From Gluconobacter vitians (GTDB lineage Bacteria; Pseudomonadota; Alphaproteobacteria; Acetobacterales; Acetobacteraceae), in contig NZ_JABCQG010000002.1 in the NCBI RefSeq assembly GCF_015244565.1, positions 1 through 64,000 on the forward strand: DNA of 64,000 nt. The letters are read 5' to 3'. Shown in pieces: positions 5,068 to 42,700 of this stretch. Position numbers and translations under genes: made by a program. Numbering within the stretch: position 1 is the stretch's first letter; each line of letters starts with the position of its first letter. The notes under the pieces were generated by a model that did not search any database, was not told the origin of the DNA, and saw only the letters and a list, made by a program, of their open reading frames with translations.

Positions 5068-7734
5068 ATGCTCGAAAAAAGCTTCGTCCCCGCCGATCAC
5101 GAAAATGCCCTCTACGATGCGTGGGAGAAAAGCGGCGCTTTCCGGGCTCACCCCGATCAGCCGGGTGAGCCTTTTTCGATCATGTTCCCGCCGCCGAACG
5201 TCACGGGTACGCTGCATCTCGGCCATTCCCTGAATTTTGTCCTTCAGGATATGCTGATTCGCTGGAAACGTCAGGAAGGATTCAATGTCCTCTGGCAGCC
5301 CGGAACGGACCACGCGGGCATCGCCACGCAGATGGTCGTCGAGCGTGCTCTCGATAAAGAAGGCACCAGCAGAACCGCTCTGGGGCGCGAAGGTTTTCTC
5401 GAACGTGTTTGGGACTGGAAGCAGGAATACGGCGGCACGATCGTCAAGCAGCTCCGTAAGCTCGGCGCCTCGGCGGACTGGGAGCGTGAGCGGTTTACGA
5501 TGGACGACGGATTGTCCCGTGCTGTCCGGAAGGTTTTCGTTACCCTTTACAAAGAAGGTCTGATCTACCGCGACCGTCGTCTGGTGAACTGGGACCCGAA
5601 GTTCCGTTCGGCCATTTCGGACCTGGAAGTGGAAAACCATGAGACCAAGGGGTCCATGTGGTACATCCGCTATCCGCTGGAAGACGGTCGGACCATCACG
5701 GTGGCTACAACACGTCCAGAAACCATGCTGGGCGATGTCGCCGTGGCCGTTCATCCGGAGGATGAGCGCTATGCCGACATGATCGGTAAGACCGTGATCC
5801 TGCCGCTTACGGGGCGTCGCATTCCTGTTGTCGCCGATCTGCATTCCGATCCGGAAAAGGGCACAGGCGCGGTCAAGATCACGCCGGCACATGACTTCAA
5901 TGACTTTGAAGTCGGCAAGCGTCACAATCTGCCAGCTCCGACCGTTTTTGATGAAACGGCCTGTCTGTGGATCGAGGAAATCCGTCCTGAACTGCGCGAT
6001 GTTGAGGGACTGGCTTCAGTTGCGTTTGTCGAATCCCTGAATGGGCTGAGCCGCGAAGAAGGCCGCAAGCAGGTTGTTGCCGAGCTTGAGCGGCTGGAAT
6101 GGCTGGAGAAGATCGAGCCACACAAGCTTCAGGTGCCGCATGCGGAGCGTGGTGGTGCAATCGTTGAGCCACGCCTGACGCTTCAGTGGTACTGCGATGC
6201 CAAGACCCTGTCGGGCCCCGCCGTAGAAGCGGTCGAAAGCGGAAAGATCGCTTTTGAGCCACGGCAGTGGGAAAACACGTTCCACGCCTGGATGCGCGAT
6301 ATCCAGCCCTGGTGCATCAGCCGGCAGCTCTGGTGGGGACACCGGATCCCGGCCTGGTATGGCGCGGACGGCAAGGTCTATGTCGCTGAAAACGAACAGG
6401 ATGCGCAGGCACAGGCCGGCGAGGGCGTAAGCCTTACGCAGGATGAGGACGTTCTGGACACATGGTTCAGCTCGGCCCTGTGGCCCTTTACGACACTTGG
6501 CTGGCCTGACAAGACGGAGGAGCTGGCCCGTTATTATCCGACCAGCGTGCTGGTTACGGGTTTTGACATCATTTTCTTCTGGGTTGCCCGGATGATGATG
6601 ATGGGTCTGCATTTCATGGATGATGTCCCGTTCCGGACTGTCCTGATTCACGGGCTGGTCCGGGACGAAAAGGGACAGAAGATGTCCAAGTCCAAGGGCA
6701 ACGGTCTTGATCCGCTGGATCTTGTGGCCGAGTTCGGGGCAGATGCGACGCGTCTGGCGATTTGTGCGGGCACGGGGCCGGGACGGGATATCAAGCTTGG
6801 GCGCAAGCGTGTTGAAGAACACCGGGCTTTCGTCACGAAGCTGTGGAATGCCGCGCGTTTCCTTGAAATGAACGGCGCCAAGCCGACGGAAGGCTTCGAC
6901 CCCGCGAGCGTCAAGAGCGCGCTTGGGCGGTGGATCCTGACGGAAGCGAATGATGCCATCACCGAAGCGGGGCGGGTTCTCTCGGTCTATCGTTTCGATG
7001 AATATGCCAACTGCTGCTACCGGTTCGTCTGGAGCCGTTTCTGTGACTGGTTTGTGGAATTCTCGAAGCCTGTCTTTGCGGCAGAAAACGAGGAAACCAC
7101 CGAGTTGCGGGCTGTCAGCGCGCATGTTCTGGGGCTGATCCTGCGGCTGATGCAGCCGGTCATTCCGTTCGTGACGGCGACGCTGTGGCAGGAGCTTGGT
7201 TATCCGGGCAAGTTCGAGGAGATCCGCTGGCCGGAAATCATGACGGTTCCTGCCGCGGACGAAGCCCGTTCGGAGCTGGACTGGGTGATCCGTCTGATTG
7301 GTGAGGTCCGGACCGTACGGTCGGAAATGAACATTCCGCCGTCACAGAAGGCGCCGCTCCTGCTGCGTGACGCAGCACCGGAAAATCTGGAACGTGCAAA
7401 GACCTGGGCTGAGGCCATTGGTCGCATGGCGCGGGTTTCCGAAGTTGGCGTGGTCGGCGAGGATACGCCGCGCAATGCCGCCCAGATCGTTCTGGATGAA
7501 GCGACCATTTTCATCCCGCTGGAAGGTCTGATCGACCTTGATGCGGAACGGGCGCGTCTTGCCAAGGAAACCTCCCGGATTGAAGGGGAGATCCTCAAGG
7601 TGACGCGCAAGCTGGACAATGCGGATTTCGTTGCCCGGGCCAAGCCGGAAGTCGTGGAAGAAAATCGTGAACGTCTCGTGGCTTTCCAGAGCGATCTGGC
7701 CCGTCTCAAGGCAGCCCTGGGGCGTCTTGCCTGA
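5068..7734 (+). CDS. valS: valyl-tRNA synthetase
   Basis: 888 residues, a usual length. It charges tRNA-Val with valine and edits mischarged threonine. The class I HIGH motif is HLGH at residues 50-53 (PPPNVTGTLHLGH). KMSKS is at 538-542 (GQKMSKSKGN). The editing (CP1) domain lies between them and contains TTRPETMLGDVAVAVHP. A C-terminal coiled-coil arm typical of ValS closes the protein (LDAERARLAKETSRIEGEI). The gene is complete and the last of the tolC-popZ-valS run. Confidence 0.97.
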   Translation: MLEKSFVPADHENALYDAWEKSGAFRAHPDQPGEPFSIMFPPPNVTGTLHLGHSLNFVLQDMLIRWKRQEGFNVLWQPGTDHAGIATQMVVERALDKEGTSRTALGREGFLERVWDWKQEYGGTIVKQLRKLGASADWERERFTMDDGLSRAVRKVFVTLYKEGLIYRDRRLVNWDPKFRSAISDLEVENHETKGSMWYIRYPLEDGRTITVATTRPETMLGDVAVAVHPEDERYADMIGKTVILPLTGRRIPVVADLHSDPEKGTGAVKITPAHDFNDFEVGKRHNLPAPTVFDETACLWIEEIRPELRDVEGLASVAFVESLNGLSREEGRKQVVAELERLEWLEKIEPHKLQVPHAERGGAIVEPRLTLQWYCDAKTLSGPAVEAVESGKIAFEPRQWENTFHAWMRDIQPWCISRQLWWGHRIPAWYGADGKVYVAENEQDAQAQAGEGVSLTQDEDVLDTWFSSALWPFTTLGWPDKTEELARYYPTSVLVTGFDIIFFWVARMMMMGLHFMDDVPFRTVLIHGLVRDEKGQKMSKSKGNGLDPLDLVAEFGADATRLAICAGTGPGRDIKLGRKRVEEHRAFVTKLWNAARFLEMNGAKPTEGFDPASVKSALGRWILTEANDAITEAGRVLSVYRFDEYANCCYRFVWSRFCDWFVEFSKPVFAAENEETTELRAVSAHVLGLILRLMQPVIPFVTATLWQELGYPGKFEEIRWPEIMTVPAADEARSELDWVIRLIGEVRTVRSEMNIPPSQKAPLLLRDAAPENLERAKTWAEAIGRMARVSEVGVVGEDTPRNAAQIVLDEATIFIPLEGLIDLDAERARLAKETSRIEGEILKVTRKLDNADFVARAKPEVVEENRERLVAFQSDLARLKAALGRLA

Positions 7735-35927: not shown

Positions 35928-38501
35928 ATGATGGTGACAGGACTGGCGGCCGTACTCCTAGCGCTTGCGTTCCTGCTCACGCTTGTCAGCATCATTCAGC
36001 CTCTCGCGAAACGTCTTGAGATTTCCGAGGCGGTTCTGCTGGCTCTGACCGGGATCGGGCTTGGGCTTGTTGCGTCTCTGATCGTTCGCTCTTCTGCAAC
36101 CGATCTGTTGGACGGGGCTGCCGAGGCGCTGATCTATTTTCCCGTCAACAGTGAAGCTTTCCTGCTGATCTTCCTGCCGATCCTAGTTTTCCAGGGTGCG
36201 ATGGCCATTGATGTCCGGCGTCTGGCGCATGAGACGGCGACGGTGCTCCTGCTGGCTGTGGTGGCGGTCATCGTTTCGACCGCGACGATCGGTTTTGCGC
36301 TCTATCCCTTTGCCAAACAGAGCCTTGTTGTCTGTCTGCTTCTTGGCTCCATCGTCGCCACGACTGATCCTTCTGCCGTGGCGGGAATCTTCCGGGAAAT
36401 CGGTGCGGCTTCGCGCCTGACGCGGCTTGTCGAGGGTGAGGCGCTTCTCAATGACGCGGCGGCCATTTCCATCTTCTCGATCCTTCTCGCGGCCGTAACA
36501 TCACATCATCAGATCCATCTGGCCGATGCGCTGATGGACTTCCTGACGGCCTTCATCGGAGCAATCGTGGTCGGCGTCTGTCTGGCGCGCCTCACACTGC
36601 TGCTGATTGCAGGGCTGGGAGGATCGGCGGCCTCCGAGGTCACGCTAACGCTGGCATTGCCCTATGCAGTCTATATCCTGTGCGATGAAATGCTCGGCTT
36701 TTCCGGGGTTGTGGCGACGGCGGCGGCAGGTCTGACGGTCTCTGCTTACGGGCCGTCCACTTTCCGGCCGCAGGTCTGGCGCTTCCTGAACGAAATGTGG
36801 GAGCAGCTCGTCTTCTGGGCCGGGTCGCTCGTCTTCCTTCTGGCGGCCATGCTCGTGCCCCGGTTGCTGATCGGCATGACGAAATGGGATTTCGTGCTGA
36901 TCATTATCGCAAGCCTCGCGGGTCTGATCGCCCGTGCGGCGGTGATCTTCGGCATGCTGCCACTGCTGGCTGTTACCAAGCTGTCTCCGCCGGTACCGAA
37001 CCCCTTCAAGGCGACGATGGCGTGGGGTGGCATCCGTGGCGCCATCACGCTCGCTCTTGCCCTAGCCGTGACCGAAAACCAGAGTGTTTCGAGCCCGGTT
37101 GCGCATTTCGTCGGTATTATTGCCACCGGTTTTGTTCTCATCACTCTTCTGGTCAACGGGACTACGCTTCGGGCTCTCGTCCTGTTCTTCAAACTGGATC
37201 AGCTATCACCGATCGATCAGGCCATCCGCCAGCAGATCGTGGGAATTGGACTGGGCGAGGTTGCTGAACGGACACGAGAGCTTTCGGAAGAACTGGGCTT
37301 CAGCGAACAGACGCGTGCAGGCGTTATCAGCCGTCTTGAGCGACGTGCCGAGAAGGAGAGGGCGGCCAATAATTTTGAGTCCGCCCTGAGTGACCGTAAC
37401 CGTGTCAATATCGCCCTGATTACGATCGCCAATCAGGAGCGCTCCCTGCTGCTGGATCTGTTCCGCATTCAGGGGCTGTCCCGCCGTGTGATGGAGACCC
37501 TGCTGCGAACAGCAGAGGCCATGGCTGACGGCGCCCGTCTGGAAGGGCGGTATGGCTATGTCCGTGCGCTCAAGCGGCGTCTTCAGCCGTCCTGGCGCTT
37601 CCGGATTGCACAGGAACTGCACAGCCGCCTTCATATCGACGAGCCGCTGACGAACTGCATGATGGAGCGTTTTGAGATGCTCATCATCGCGCATCTCGTC
37701 TCACTTTCGCTCCAGCGCTTTATCCGCCAGCGCATGGAACCGACGCTCGGCCCGCGCATCACGGAAATCGTGTCCGAGGTTCTGGGGCGGCAGCGCAAGC
37801 TTCTCGATGACGCGCTTGAAACGCTGCGTCTGCATTATTCCGGTTATTCAGAGGCTTTGGAGAGCCGTATCCTGCGTCAGATCGCACTGCGTCTGGAGGA
37901 CGAGGAATATGATGCGCTGGAAGCCGATAATCTGATTTCGGAAGAACTGCACCGCGAACTGCATCGCGAGATCGAGCGTCAGCGTGCCCGGCTTGATGCG
38001 CCTCTGCGCTTCAATCTCAAGAGCGGTATCGAGCAGCGTCTCCGGGCGTTTCCTGCCTTTAACGGCGTGCCTGACAATGTGCTGCAAAAGCTCGCAGGCA
38101 AGGTCTCGATGCATTTTGTCTCGCCTGGTGAAGTCCTGTTCAAGCGTGGGCAGCGCGTGCGCTTCGTTTATGCGCAGGTCGCAGGACTGGCAGAGGTCAA
38201 TCTTGCGGAACGGGATCTGCTTTTCGGGAGCGGGGATTTGATCGGGGCGGCGTCTGTCATCCGGAACGATGTCATGCCGGGGACAGTGCGCTCCCTGCAG
38301 TTCAGCCATCTGCTCGCCATTCCACGTCCTGTGTTTGAAAGGCTGCTGAAGGACTATCCCATCGTTCAGCGCCTCATCATACAGCGTAGCCAGAAGAGGG
38401 CAGATGGGCTGCTTACGCCTGTCACGGTCCGGACGCTGGACGGCGCTGCGGTCTCGACGGCTTCGGCCACCGAGATGCGTCGTCTGGTCGCGCCGCCTTA
38501 A
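35928..38501 (+). CDS. CPA1-type Na+/H+ (cation/proton) antiporter with C-terminal cyclic-nucleotide-binding-like domain
   Basis: 857 residues. About 410 residues form a multi-span membrane domain with ATTDPSAVAGIFREIG and EALLNDAAAISIFSIL, motifs of NhaP/NHE-type exchangers. The polar middle part (410-690) is helical and charged. A cyclic-nucleotide-binding-like fold follows near 700-820 (FVSPGEVLFKRGQRVRFVYAQVAGLAEV). Such a module may gate transport. The gene ends four bases inside the convergent POT transporter gene. The exact ion is unknown. Confidence 0.85.
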   Translation: MMVTGLAAVLLALAFLLTLVSIIQPLAKRLEISEAVLLALTGIGLGLVASLIVRSSATDLLDGAAEALIYFPVNSEAFLLIFLPILVFQGAMAIDVRRLAHETATVLLLAVVAVIVSTATIGFALYPFAKQSLVVCLLLGSIVATTDPSAVAGIFREIGAASRLTRLVEGEALLNDAAAISIFSILLAAVTSHHQIHLADALMDFLTAFIGAIVVGVCLARLTLLLIAGLGGSAASEVTLTLALPYAVYILCDEMLGFSGVVATAAAGLTVSAYGPSTFRPQVWRFLNEMWEQLVFWAGSLVFLLAAMLVPRLLIGMTKWDFVLIIIASLAGLIARAAVIFGMLPLLAVTKLSPPVPNPFKATMAWGGIRGAITLALALAVTENQSVSSPVAHFVGIIATGFVLITLLVNGTTLRALVLFFKLDQLSPIDQAIRQQIVGIGLGEVAERTRELSEELGFSEQTRAGVISRLERRAEKERAANNFESALSDRNRVNIALITIANQERSLLLDLFRIQGLSRRVMETLLRTAEAMADGARLEGRYGYVRALKRRLQPSWRFRIAQELHSRLHIDEPLTNCMMERFEMLIIAHLVSLSLQRFIRQRMEPTLGPRITEIVSEVLGRQRKLLDDALETLRLHYSGYSEALESRILRQIALRLEDEEYDALEADNLISEELHRELHREIERQRARLDAPLRFNLKSGIEQRLRAFPAFNGVPDNVLQKLAGKVSMHFVSPGEVLFKRGQRVRFVYAQVAGLAEVNLAERDLLFGSGDLIGAASVIRNDVMPGTVRSLQFSHLLAIPRPVFERLLKDYPIVQRLIIQRSQKRADGLLTPVTVRTLDGAAVSTASATEMRRLVAPP

Positions 38502-39928
38502 GGAACGGGCGGCGCGGTCTCTTTTCCGGGTGCCAGCAGATCGCGGAATCGCACGGCGCAGAAGCCAAGAAGCGCCGCTGCCAGCAATGCAGCGCCTGAA
38601 TGCAGCAGCCAGAACGAGACATCTGAAATGCGGCCCAGCAGCGTCGCCAGCTTTCCGATCAGAAGATTGGACAGGAACAGATGGAGCGAGAAGCAGGCGA
38701 CGAGAATGGTATTCAGACTGACAGGTGCGGCGCGTGAGAAAAGCGCCATGCCGATCGCGTAATTCATCGAAAACCCGATATCATTGATGATGTGGAAAGC
38801 CAGCCCCCAGAACAGGCTGACTTCATGCGGCCCGGGGCTCAGCCATGCTCCGAGAGCCAGCATCAGGGGCGCGAAAGCTGCTATGAAAGCTCCCAGCGCC
38901 ACCTTGGCGATTTCCGACAGGTCCTGACGTCGGCGCGCATAGGCTTTCCAGAACCAGAGGACGAGCACGGCGCACAGGGTACTGATGAAGCCGTCGAGGG
39001 ATATGAGATCGCTGACCGGCATTTCATATCCAAGAAGGTGAAGCTGGAAATGTTCACGCCCCCAGAGCAGATAGCCATCGAAAATCTCGGAATTCGGAAC
39101 AGCGCCCACGGCCATGACAGGAACGAGCGCAAGAAGCAGGATCGTTGTTTTCTTTTCCTGCAAGGTCAGGGCAGGGCGCGGCCTTTTTTCAGTCCCGATC
39201 GCATCAGGGGCAGTCCGCGCCAACAGAGACGGGGCGGGGAGCCAGCGACGCCCAACAAGATAGACGACCAGCCCGATCAGCATGCCCAGACCCGCGGCCA
39301 GAAATCCCCAGTGCCATTCGATCTGCGCCAGGCTCGCACAGAGGACCGGGGAGACGATGACTGCAACCTGAAGTCCCATCGTGTAGATCTGATAGGCGTC
39401 CGAGCGTCGTCGGTCTGTCAGGGCATATAATGCGCCCACCTGCGCCCGCAGACCGCCCGCCATACCTAGACCCAGAAGCAGCAGGCCGAGCGCCAGCACG
39501 AAACTCCAGTCGAACGACATCAGGAAATGTCCCGCTGTCATCAGGATAGCGCCCAGCAGAATGGTCCTTGTCTGGCCGAGCACGCGGTCTGCAAGAAAAC
39601 CGCCAAGGAGAGGGGTTGCGTAAATCAGAGCCAGGAACAGGCCCGTAATGGCGCCAGCCAAAGCCTGGGTTCCGACAGGTGCGTAAAGAGCCGAAACAAG
39701 AGTTTCAAGCGGCGCCAGACCCAGCACATGTCCCGCATGGTCCGGCTGCAGCAGATGATCCGTCAGGTACAGCGCCAGGATGGCCTGCATTCCATAAAGC
39801 GAGAAACCGACCCAGCCTTCGGTGAGTGTCAGCACCCACAAACCGATCGGATGGCCCCAGAGTTCCTGCTGCGTGCTTGAGACCGCAGGCCGCTCGACGG
39901 CTGGGGATTGAGGAATGATCTCGGTCAT
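38498..39928 (-). CDS. POT/PTR2-family proton-dependent peptide transporter
   Basis: 476 residues with about 12-14 predicted membrane spans. POT-type motifs are GFSLYGMQAILALYLTDHL near the N-terminus and GGFLADRVLGQTRTILLGA. These match FYGMRxxLxxYL and GGxxADRxLG. The family imports di- and tripeptides with protons. The gene is divergent from a porin across a 574-base spacer rich in palindromic sites, so both may share a regulator. Substrate is inferred. Confidence 0.85.
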   Translation of the reverse strand: MTEIIPQSPAVERPAVSSTQQELWGHPIGLWVLTLTEGWVGFSLYGMQAILALYLTDHLLQPDHAGHVLGLAPLETLVSALYAPVGTQALAGAITGLFLALIYATPLLGGFLADRVLGQTRTILLGAILMTAGHFLMSFDWSFVLALGLLLLGLGMAGGLRAQVGALYALTDRRRSDAYQIYTMGLQVAVIVSPVLCASLAQIEWHWGFLAAGLGMLIGLVVYLVGRRWLPAPSLLARTAPDAIGTEKRPRPALTLQEKKTTILLLALVPVMAVGAVPNSEIFDGYLLWGREHFQLHLLGYEMPVSDLISLDGFISTLCAVLVLWFWKAYARRRQDLSEIAKVALGAFIAAFAPLMLALGAWLSPGPHEVSLFWGLAFHIINDIGFSMNYAIGMALFSRAAPVSLNTILVACFSLHLFLSNLLIGKLATLLGRISDVSFWLLHSGAALLAAALLGFCAVRFRDLLAPGKETAPPVP

Positions 39929-40006
39929 GCGGCCTCATATGCGCAGGGGAAGAAGATCCTGCGTAGAGGCAGAAAGCCGGTGAGGTAAAGAGGCAGAGAA
40001 GAGGGG

Positions 40007-40048
40007 ATGGCAAAATGCCATAGGGCATTAGTTATGGCATTTTGCCAT
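40007..40048. repeat. 16-base perfect inverted repeat made of two palindromic sites
   Basis: Bases 40007-40022 and 40033-40048 are perfect complements over 16 bases with a 10-base loop. Each arm is itself a palindrome: ATGGCAAAATGCCAT and ATGGCATTTTGCCAT. The centres are 27 bases apart. This looks like paired operator sites; a hairpin role is also possible. Confidence 0.8.
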
Positions 40049-40074
40049 TGTGCCACAGGTGCATGTTCTAGATG

Positions 40075-40117
40075 TGGCATTTTGTCCTAAATTTCGATCT
40101 GTGGCTTTTTGCCATAG
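40075..40117. promoter_or_regulatory. second pair of TGGC-type sites
   Basis: TGGCATTTTGTCC at 40075-40087 is a one-sided degenerate copy. TGGCTTTTTGCCATAG at 40102-40117 is a good copy. Their centres are again 27 bases apart, matching the first pair. Confidence 0.6.
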
Positions 40118-40200
40118 ATGCGTTGCCCAGCAGCTTTCGAGAGCATAAATGTCCGTGCGTTATGCGGACCGATTCAAAGCTAGCTTAGGGAAAGACAGAG

Positions 40201-40219
40201 TTATGGCTTATTGCCATAA
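40201..40219. promoter_or_regulatory. fifth TGGC-type palindrome
   Basis: TTATGGC-TTATT-GCCATAA has perfect seven-base arms and a five-base centre. It is the longest palindrome of the set and the nearest to the porin gene. Confidence 0.7.
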
Positions 40220-40325
40220 GAGGAATGGCTGAAAACTGCGGATTTTGCGCGTTCAGGAATCATGGTGAACAAAATGGATGAGCTGCGAGCCTCAGGCAGG
40301 GCCGTTCTCACACGCATGTCGTATA

Positions 40326-40352
40326 AGATATATTATGCCAACTAATATATCT
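40326..40352. repeat. inverted repeat upstream of the porin gene
   Basis: AGATATATT (40326-40334) and AATATATCT (40344-40352) are a perfect nine-base inverted repeat with nine bases between. No T-tract follows. It could be an operator or part of the porin 5' untranslated region. Confidence 0.55.
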
Positions 40353-40502
40353 GGAAACCATGAATTTCTGACGTTTTTGTGAGAACACATCCTATTGTTG
40401 CGAAGAATGTCTCCATTCGCGCTAGGAAAAGCAGTGTAGTCCAATCTGCCGGTGAGCGCCCGCATTGCGATCGTCGGTATATCCGCGGGAGCGGCTGTTT
40501 AT

Positions 40503-42137
40503 ATGCCATCTATGTCCCTGTGCCGCCTGAGCCTTCTGGGAAGCACATTCTGCATTGCTGCACTCTCCGTCCTCCCGAACGCCGCATGGGCCGATGATTA
40601 TACGGAACTGCTCGACATTCTTAGGGCCAAGGGCAGTCTGACCCGCTCGGAATATAATGTGCTGCTGGCCCATCATCAGCATCACTCACATCCTTCGCTG
40701 CAACGTGACGATGACAGCGCACCCGCTGCCCCCTCACGACACCGCAACCGCTACATGCGCTATGGGCCCCAGAACGAAGGAAGCAGCCTGGAGGCTCCCC
40801 CGGATGTGACGACCATCGCCGCCGTTTCCGCCGCGCGCCGTGCCGCCATGGATGCATCGGCCAGTGCACAGGACGCCCGCAATTCGCTTCTGGAAGCGCG
40901 CCGGACCTATAATCCGGACAGCATCGTGCGCGTGAAACCCTATGTCGCGGGAAAAGGTGTGACGATCCAGGCCGGCCAGATCGATATCAATATCTCGGGC
41001 TTCGTCAACGCCTACTACACCTATAACAGCCCCGGCGGTGGTCGCCCGGTCGCAGGTGGCGTCTCGACCGGCAGCAGCGGCTTTGACTCCTCGTCTGTCC
41101 GTAACGGCCTGCTGCCCGGTGGTCTGATCCTCAAGCTGAATACGGTTCAGGACGGGATCAAGCTTGGTGCTGTCTTCGGCATGTATCCCGGCATCAACAA
41201 CAACAATCCCAGCACCTTCAATGCCAACTCGGGCGGCAGCCCAGTCGGCCTTGGAACGGCCGGCCTCGATTTTCGTCAGGTCTACATGACCGCTGGCACC
41301 GACAGGTTCGGTACGGTCAAGCTGGGTCGCGACATTGCGCTGTTCGCGTCTGACGCTATCCTGAACGACGCCACGCTTCTCAGCGTTGGCAGTACCGGCA
41401 GCAACGCCAATCCTGCCAACACGTCTCTGGGCCGTATCGGCGTGGGTTACGTCTATACCGACTGGCTGCCGCAGATCACCTATATCTCGCCGAAATGGAA
41501 AGGCTTCCAGGCCTCCGTTGGCATCATGACGCCACTCGACGAGTTCAACTTTGCCGGCGGCGGCATCTCCGCAACCACGACCCAGCACAGCTCTCCCATG
41601 CTTCAGGGCAAGGTCACCTATGATGGCAATATCGCAGGCTTTACGACCCGCTTCTGGAGCAGCTTCCTCGTTCAGCACCAGCAGAACCTGACCAGCGCAA
41701 CCCTTGGCAGCAGCAGCCGGAAAGGCACGACGGTCGAGGCCGGCGACGTTGGCGTCAAGGTTTCGCGCGGCCCGTTTGAAGGCGTGGCCTATTACTACTA
41801 TGGCAGTGGTCTTGGTACGACTGGCATCTTCTTCGATGGCGTATCTGCCGACGGACGCAAGCGTGACTCCGAAGGCTACTATGTTCAGGCGGCCTACAAG
41901 ATCCTGCCCAAGCTCAAGCTTGTTGGCAGCTATGGCGTCAGCAACCTCTATCAGGCTCCGGGCGAAGACAATCCGTCCATGGTCCGGCGCAACCAGTCGG
42001 AAGTCGGAGCGATCTATTACAATCTGACGGACTGGTTCACGATCGTGGGCGAATATGCCCATACAGAATCGGATTCCCACAGCATCGCTCACGAAAGCGA
42101 CCACACCATGTCCGCCGGTGCGATGATGACGTTCTGA
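40503..42137 (+). CDS. outer membrane porin
   Basis: 544 residues from ATG 40503; GTG 40452 and ATG 40512 are in-frame alternatives. The first 30 residues form a signal peptide ending in AWA. A short N-terminal helical part (DYTELLDILRAKGSLTRSEYN) and a His-rich, charged stretch precede the barrel. The barrel region has alternating beta strands such as INISGFVNAYYTYNS and DRFGTVKLGRDIALF, and it ends in an aromatic F. It probably lets small solutes cross the outer membrane. A strong hairpin follows the stop. Confidence 0.85.
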   Translation: MPSMSLCRLSLLGSTFCIAALSVLPNAAWADDYTELLDILRAKGSLTRSEYNVLLAHHQHHSHPSLQRDDDSAPAAPSRHRNRYMRYGPQNEGSSLEAPPDVTTIAAVSAARRAAMDASASAQDARNSLLEARRTYNPDSIVRVKPYVAGKGVTIQAGQIDINISGFVNAYYTYNSPGGGRPVAGGVSTGSSGFDSSSVRNGLLPGGLILKLNTVQDGIKLGAVFGMYPGINNNNPSTFNANSGGSPVGLGTAGLDFRQVYMTAGTDRFGTVKLGRDIALFASDAILNDATLLSVGSTGSNANPANTSLGRIGVGYVYTDWLPQITYISPKWKGFQASVGIMTPLDEFNFAGGGISATTTQHSSPMLQGKVTYDGNIAGFTTRFWSSFLVQHQQNLTSATLGSSSRKGTTVEAGDVGVKVSRGPFEGVAYYYYGSGLGTTGIFFDGVSADGRKRDSEGYYVQAAYKILPKLKLVGSYGVSNLYQAPGEDNPSMVRRNQSEVGAIYYNLTDWFTIVGEYAHTESDSHSIAHESDHTMSAGAMMTF

Positions 42138-42140
42138 GCC

Positions 42141-42174
42141 TGAAAGACCGGGCATTCCCCTGCCCGGTCTTTCA
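42141..42174 (+). terminator. strong hairpin after the porin gene
   Basis: TGAAAGACCGGGCA and TGCCCGGTCTTTCA form a perfect 14-base stem with a six-base loop. No run of T follows, so it may act as a 3' stabiliser as much as a terminator. The SD of the next gene lies directly behind it. Confidence 0.65.
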
Positions 42175-42181
42175 AAAGGAA

Positions 42182-42700
42182 GTGTCCATCAAAACGCCTC
42201 TTCCCTTTGTCCTGAGCGCCCTGTTTGCGCTCCATGGACAGGCGGAAGCCGCATCTGCCACCGCAATGCAGGACATCATCAAGTCAAAGCTTGGACTGTC
42301 CCTCTATCAGGAAGTGGATGTCGTGCTGAACGGGAGCGGTACGACACGGCAATATCTTGTCTATGCCCGGGACAGCACATGGTGTGGAGTAACCGGGGGC
42401 TGCATGCTCTTCATTCTCACGAACAGTAGCGACGGCTGGCGGGTCCTGTCACGCATGACGCTGGTTCACCTGCCCATTCGTGCCCTGCCGCATCTGTCAA
42501 AGGGCTGGCATGATCTCGAAGTGTCCTATTCCGGCAAACTGCCGGATGGGCGCCCTGCTCTTGTCACCAGTCGCATGCGGTTTGATGGCGCACGGTATCC
42601 GCTCAATCCATCAGTCCCGCCAGCCGAACCGGTCGAGCGCCCGGGAGGACAGATCGTTCTCGCCACGGACAGCCCGATACAGACCAGCACCCCGCATTAA
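42182..42700 (+). CDS. small exported protein of unknown function
   Basis: 172 residues from GTG 42182, with AAAAGGA immediately upstream. A signal peptide (PFVLSALFALHGQAEA) is followed by a domain with two cysteines (STWCGVTGGCMLFIL) and WRVLSRMTLVHLPIRALP, then WHDLEVSYSG. This layout is met in uncharacterised periplasmic proteins of Proteobacteria; I know no function. The C-terminus is Pro-rich. It overlaps the convergent MBL gene by four bases. Confidence 0.7.
   Translation: MSIKTPLPFVLSALFALHGQAEAASATAMQDIIKSKLGLSLYQEVDVVLNGSGTTRQYLVYARDSTWCGVTGGCMLFILTNSSDGWRVLSRMTLVHLPIRALPHLSKGWHDLEVSYSGKLPDGRPALVTSRMRFDGARYPLNPSVPPAEPVERPGGQIVLATDSPIQTSTPH

Follow-up and report, generated by a model that had tools for sequence, protein, structure and literature searches.

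Between the divergent genes for a peptide transporter and a porin, the 64 000-nucleotide stretch of Gluconobacter vitians DNA analysed here (the window) carries a row of short palindromes, and the question raised by this locus is which protein binds them and which gene they serve. The initial annotation had described about five TGGC-N5-GCCA palindromes in this spacer (40007–40219), and we confirmed such an array, made up of four intact sites and one decayed site, its centres and spacings of 27, 40, 27 and 102 bp being correct as given there.

The palindrome array and its neighbouring genes

38498–39928, minus strand: POT-family (PTR2) oligopeptide:H+ symporter gene, the presumed target (Pfam PF00854, E 2.7e-17)
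39961–39989, minus strand: candidate POT core promoter TTTACC-N17-CTACGC, low confidence, read by eye from an alignment of 20 congeners
40008–40020, no strand: operator 1, TGGCAAAATGCCA, exact TGGC-N5-GCCA
40035–40047, no strand: operator 2, TGGCATTTTGCCA, exact TGGC-N5-GCCA, 27 bp from operator 1
40075–40087, no strand: decayed operator, TGGCATTTTGTCC, two arm mismatches
40102–40114, no strand: operator 3, TGGCTTTTTGCCA, exact TGGC-N5-GCCA
40204–40216, no strand: operator 4, TGGCTTATTGCCA, exact TGGC-N5-GCCA
40503–42137, plus strand: porin gene, with a start codon chosen by us (the ORF list begins at 40452)

The plain TGGC-N5-GCCA motif was weakly enriched in the window (6 sites versus 2.56 expected, 3 of 100 shuffles reaching 6). 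Its A/T-centred form was present four times versus 0.04 expected, a count reached by none of 100 shuffles, and the 3.16-Mb genome held seven such sites, four in the POT spacer, two near an XRE gene and one within a long ORF that by eye is aminopeptidase-like. A strict 15-mer derived from the motif gave 73 matches in 27 genomes (the window's own, 25 with the same genus label and one of another genus) versus one for the reversed control; 69 of these lay at POT or XRE loci, and the remaining four were located within ORFs (three; G004, G013 and G020) and near a Swaminathania GH32 gene. In the same 27 genomes TGGCWWWWWGCCA was matched 184 times versus 22 for the control. Thus, the motif is not scattered randomly. 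Occurrences of TGGCATTTTGCCA within metG (G001 and G011 examined) were coding and were set aside, and a sigma-54 reading of the TGGC/GC elements in the array was dropped, as the spacing does not fit the sigma-54 consensus.

In 25 of the 26 congeners the DNA ahead of POT contains at least three exact sites, G004 having none, and the motif is thus kept in the orthologous spacers. With an E limit of 1e-40, a POT search of 150 family genomes returned 36 rows, of which 33 came from genomes other than the congeners. In about 1 kb upstream of the strongest 20 of these 33, 18 were site-less, and the other two were those of Brytella (five sites) and Tanticharoenia (six sites). A porin was found beside POT in 21 of the 26 congeners and was not found there in five (L075–L078 and G004). 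The array stands before POT without an adjoining porin at L075–L078 and in Brytella and Tanticharoenia, and G004 possesses both the regulator described below and POT, but neither array sites nor a porin beside POT. The array travels with POT.

It had also been proposed that one regulator jointly controls uptake across the inner and the outer membrane through this array. In 21 of 26 congeners the array is flanked by both of these divergently read genes, which would suit joint control of POT and porin, but we consider such control unlikely: at six loci that carry the array, POT has no porin next to it, the site nearest to POT lies 79 bp from its start whereas the farthest lies about 290 bp from the onset of porin homology in the window genome, and porin-directed promoter-like elements, which are consensus matches only, are placed at 40305–40336, outside the array on the porin side. 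The porin, which showed a weak, sub-cut-off match to Pfam Porin_O_P (E 0.0037), is probably a neighbour and not the array's reason. The POT protein matched NCBIfam TIGR00924 with E 1.3e-36 and 126.7 bits, slightly below the cut-off of 130.2.

The XRE regulator gene and its operators

G000:C9:14832–15221, strand not given: gene of the 130-aa XRE/HTH_3 regulator (PF01381)
L131, about 6610–6660, antisense through the regulator gene: DN promoter, TTGACC-[17 bp holding an operator]-TAATTT

Two of the seven A/T-centred genomic sites (G000:C9:15238 and 15283) lie directly upstream of a gene whose 130-aa product matched Pfam PF01381 (HTH_3) with 41.5 bits against a cut-off of 23. Its Pfam matches were confined to HTH families, with no S24-like domain detected, and NCBIfam returned RstR and DicA only, both below cut-off. 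Two peptide patterns, which distant relatives would escape, retrieved 35 regulator loci (L152–L186) from the genome collection, belonging to Gluconobacter, Neokomagataea, Acidomonas, Tanticharoenia, Brytella, Asaia and Swaminathania. An operator was located at −31 to −27 from the regulator start codon at all 35 loci and at −90 to −68 at 33 (L173 having one mismatch in this upper site, and L175 lacking it); a pair of operators 32 bp apart followed 570–640 bp past the start, likewise at 33 loci (the second site being degenerate in L174 and the first absent in L186). The arms of these operators are constant and the middle five bases drift. The single co-occurring regulator that the initial annotation had suspected was thus found in this XRE gene, which bears the motif in its own flanks, conserved across loci. 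Judged by motif position (35 and 33 of 35 loci), the operators would lie in the promoter of the gene itself, as looked for in a phage-type repressor of the XRE/HTH_3 class.

The DN promoter, which is conserved and promoter-like in scans whose scores are top values picked from several hundred offsets and do not serve as significance tests, is directed towards an operon for a 102-aa and a 180-aa protein, and the small reading frame after it was, by eye, similar in close relatives and dissimilar in distant ones. All 35 loci further contain an exact TTAA-N7-TTAA box (for example at +567 from the regulator start in L156), which we take to be the CtrA consensus. This box ends directly beside the place taken by the first of the two downstream operators and, in Gluconobacter, overlaps the −10 element of the DN promoter, and its middle seven bases diverge between genera. 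In 567 kb, TTAA pairs with a spacing of 7 numbered 38, and no other spacing between 2 and 19 was represented more than 11 times. According to the available text of PMC11150451, the GTA of Rhodobacter is under CtrA control.

Sites at the regulator gene alone do not prove autoregulation, and a different, unlinked transcription factor could bind TGGC-N5-GCCA with the XRE gene as just one of its targets. This appears improbable, as four sites flank the XRE gene on both sides at most of the 35 loci, and the surrounding sequence, up to 16.4 kb, was free of further exact matches at 33 of them and held one each in L183 and L186. Nor was the motif enriched in nine family genomes in which no regulator orthologue was found (TGGCWWWWWGCCA, 2 matches versus 3 for the control), among them G026 with a weak regulator match (38% over 68 residues); in eleven regulator-bearing Acidomonas, Tanticharoenia, Brytella and Asaia genomes enrichment was weaker than in the 27-genome set (34 versus 11), and the whole comparison of genome sets is supportive only, because base composition may differ between them. 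XRE phage repressors normally autoregulate, which also speaks against another factor. On the conserved placement of its sites, the 130-aa XRE/HTH_3 protein is likely to be the cognate regulator of the motif. Titles and abstract openings of the literature matches listed gave no account of this XRE regulator, of the motif or of a link to POT.

The phage-like element and other motif-bearing genes

L131, 7643–8182, strand not given: gene of the 180-aa protein, the predicted model of which resembles phage 21 Q
L131, 8263–8293: terminator-like hairpin after the 180-aa gene, ahead of late genes
L241, 1056–1128 (G000:C3, about 211.2 kb), strand not given: leader of the lysis-like operon, with promoter-like element, operator and terminator-like hairpin

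The regulator gene is divergent from the operon for the 102-aa protein and the 180-aa candidate Q21-like antiterminator, and phage terminase and portal genes are found near it (the terms holin-like, Q21-like and GTA-like serve as working labels throughout). Terminase and portal shared the stretch with the regulator at 36 of 36 loci, and dnaB at 23. The 180-aa protein is likened to phage 21 Q, and so to lambda-type late control, by its predicted model (Foldseek E 0.8), no sequence match being found among solved structures. One of its 28 relatives matched DUF6456, which we take to be the GafZ family, with E 0.018, unrelated matches being of similar strength; the name DUF6456 does not occur in the paper searched for it. 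The 102-aa protein had no Pfam match.

A portal match was obtained in all 26 congeners and in eight of ten other family genomes (G026 giving three rows, and G007, G017 and G029 being fragmented). The head–tail cluster is thus kept across related species, as looked for in a GTA, and was presumably inherited vertically. It encodes a tail sheath (phrog_23, E 3.7e-45) and baseplate wedge proteins, and therefore contractile-tail genes, by which it differs from RcGTA, the tail of which is non-contractile and of siphovirus type. A PHROGs scan of 17 proteins from the cluster region gave one weak 'transposase' profile match (E 0.0017), to the terminase small subunit. The regulator locus thus appears to be part of a GTA- or prophage-type element.

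Temperate myoviruses of Komagataeibacter, phiKX1 and phiKX2, are described in the available text of PMC8566455; their portal is 54–55% identical to the present one over 98% of its length, and their annotated order of terminase, portal, minor structural and coat protein is alike. They are known as 53-kb phage records, whereas here the head and tail genes adjoin the regulator and the lysis-like operon lies elsewhere. The same text reports myovirus-like particles, their heads measuring 41 ± 5 nm, after mitomycin induction of acetic acid bacteria including three Gluconobacter strains. To us these heads appear small for the 34–54 kb phage genomes sequenced there, and some of the particles might be of another kind.

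The unlinked lysis-like operon comprises two genes, one for a 114-aa protein that by eye is holin-like and one for a protein of 157–162 aa, which matched phrog_3108 in the Neokomagataea copy and, weakly and below cut-off, the lysozyme-like SLT_3 in the window-genome copy (E 0.027). The second gene gave 51 matches in 32 of 38 genomes, and the loci of 30 of these 51 were examined. An exact operator was located 399–430 bp upstream at 26 of these 30, Tanticharoenia having it at −73 instead, and none was found at two Asaia loci and in G004. In the window genome the operator starts two bases past TTGATA-17-TATATT and is followed by the terminator-like hairpin, a leader layout which suggests repression plus antitermination.

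A single operator stands ahead of a GH32 gene in six of eight Asaia genomes and in Swaminathania (L208, L209, L212, L215, L216, L217 and L137; Pfam GH32 for L208, the others by similar sequence). In five of these seven, TTGAC[A/T] lies three bases before the operator, which is the geometry of the DN promoter, and the gene would represent a lineage-specific host target in Asaia and Swaminathania. Operators were also found ahead of a phage-lysozyme gene in two Neokomagataea-type genomes (G001 and G008) and in Tanticharoenia; this operon was rejected as a general target, as strong matches in four of 38 genomes plus one weak match mark it as a clade feature. Motif sites precede a 125-aa gene in two genomes, and L211, L213, L214 and L218 each have a single intergenic site, L211 being the lysis-like operon of Acidomonas (L250) and the other three perhaps due to chance.

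Within the POT spacers, the palindromes are also related to one another. Operators 1 and 2 of the window (40008–40047) are exact reverse complements of each other. Spacings of 25–29 bp made up 21 of 69 neighbouring gaps in the 26 congeners, the remaining spacings being variable, and sites 22–29 bp apart were exact reverse complements in 13 of 21 pairs versus 0.19 for random pairs from the same pool, a figure inflated by shared descent, since counts within one genus are not independent. Pairs with the 25–29 bp spacing, at 40008–40047 of the window and in relatives' POT spacers, often form nested inverted repeats, which could stem from head-to-head operators or from quasi-palindrome correction. 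Such repeats, together with terminator-like scores for one array site in the window and two sites at the regulator locus, would be expected if the palindromes acted as hairpins in RNA or DNA (as terminators or as REP-like or cruciform elements) instead of operators. We regard this as most improbable: the promoters of the regulator, the lysis-like operon and GH32 carry sites that either stand alone or do not complement one another, and these sites lie in or beside −35/−10-like elements, an Rfam scan of 38000–42500 gave nothing at the gathering threshold, and the loop drifts between conserved arms.

Proposed control of POT and comparison with known repressors

The reading we favour, with a probability of about 0.8, is that the array serves POT as a control region with several operators, bound in trans by dimers of the 130-aa XRE/HTH_3 protein, which would be the repressor of the phage-like element. 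In this proposal the regulator would act as the repressor of a conserved GTA- or prophage-type element and would control its own promoter and the divergent operon with the Q21-like antiterminator candidate, as well as the unlinked lysis-like operon and a promoter on the downstream side of the regulator gene. As long as the repressor is present, these promoters would be held down; upon its loss or inactivation, production of the antiterminator would start, late and lysis genes would be read, and POT expression would change simultaneously. The sequences show the operators, their positions, their conservation and their co-occurrence with the regulator; binding by the regulator, repression and not activation at POT, and a cooperative or looped occupancy of the sites spaced 25–29 bp apart are what we infer from them.

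Operators situated in or against promoter-like elements, as seen around the regulator gene, ahead of GH32 and in the lysis-like operon, fit repression. At POT, by eye, all operators are upstream of a conserved TTTACC-N17-YTACG block and none on top of it, and as this is the sole conserved promoter-like block there, activation or looping is possible. A POT promoter with an operator inside its spacer, as in DN and GH32, was inconsistent among species by eye and by promoter scan, and was rejected. The same regulator may activate POT from upstream while repressing the phage-like targets, and phage repressors that double as activators are known. This alternative is a possible but clearly less probable one, since the gap from the proximal operator to the block varies by several bases among species (by eye), unlike the fixed geometry of an activator, and since the block is a poor sigma-70 promoter, conserved yet with a poorly matching −10 and outside the top three of the promoter scan. 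For POT, repression through multi-dimer occupancy or looping and activation are both possible, and we would put repression ahead at about two to one.

As far as the available texts of PMC9632790 and PMC11150451 go, the nearest parallel in function is RogA, a helix-turn-helix repressor of the Caulobacter crescentus GTA that acts via gafYZ. As proposed for the present regulator, RogA governs an activator/antiterminator operon of a domesticated phage-like cluster; it also binds one further promoter (CCNA_02002), and Caulobacter has auxiliary genes elsewhere in the genome. RogA, however, possesses an S24-like domain, none being detectable in the 130-aa protein, and its promoter carries GGAA-N4-TTCC repeats whereas the sites conserved here are TGGC-N5-GCCA. 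On these two differences, the regulator was not filed as RogA. In addition, the lysis-like operon and POT have operators of their own here, and contractile-tail genes are part of the cluster. Another XRE protein, CdxB, acts on Caulobacter gafYZ (available text of PMC13236601). The repressors of P22 (C2) and ICEBs1 are similar in the N-terminal HTH (phmmer E 2.6e-4 and 1.4e-4), but the present regulator matches HTH families only, and its gene has stayed next to one and the same cluster across seven genera.

That the regulator belongs to a phage-like element with lysis-like targets speaks against a simple nutrient-uptake regulon. Tentatively, acetic acid bacteria of several genera could have retained an undescribed contractile-tailed GTA that is connected to an XRE repressor, a CtrA-type cell-cycle box and a Q21-like antiterminator. 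Its repressor would have recruited a chromosomal di/tripeptide importer, so that uptake and particle production or lysis would switch together, perhaps with feedback from imported peptide. If true, this would supply a domesticated phage-like element with its regulator, its operator code and its regulon, in an order in which the survey table in the available text of PMC6821227 counted no RcGTA-like clusters in 62 Acetobacterales genomes, and would link such an element to nutrient import by the host. In acetic acid bacteria, one switch may thus serve both a gene for food uptake and a programme for viral particles.
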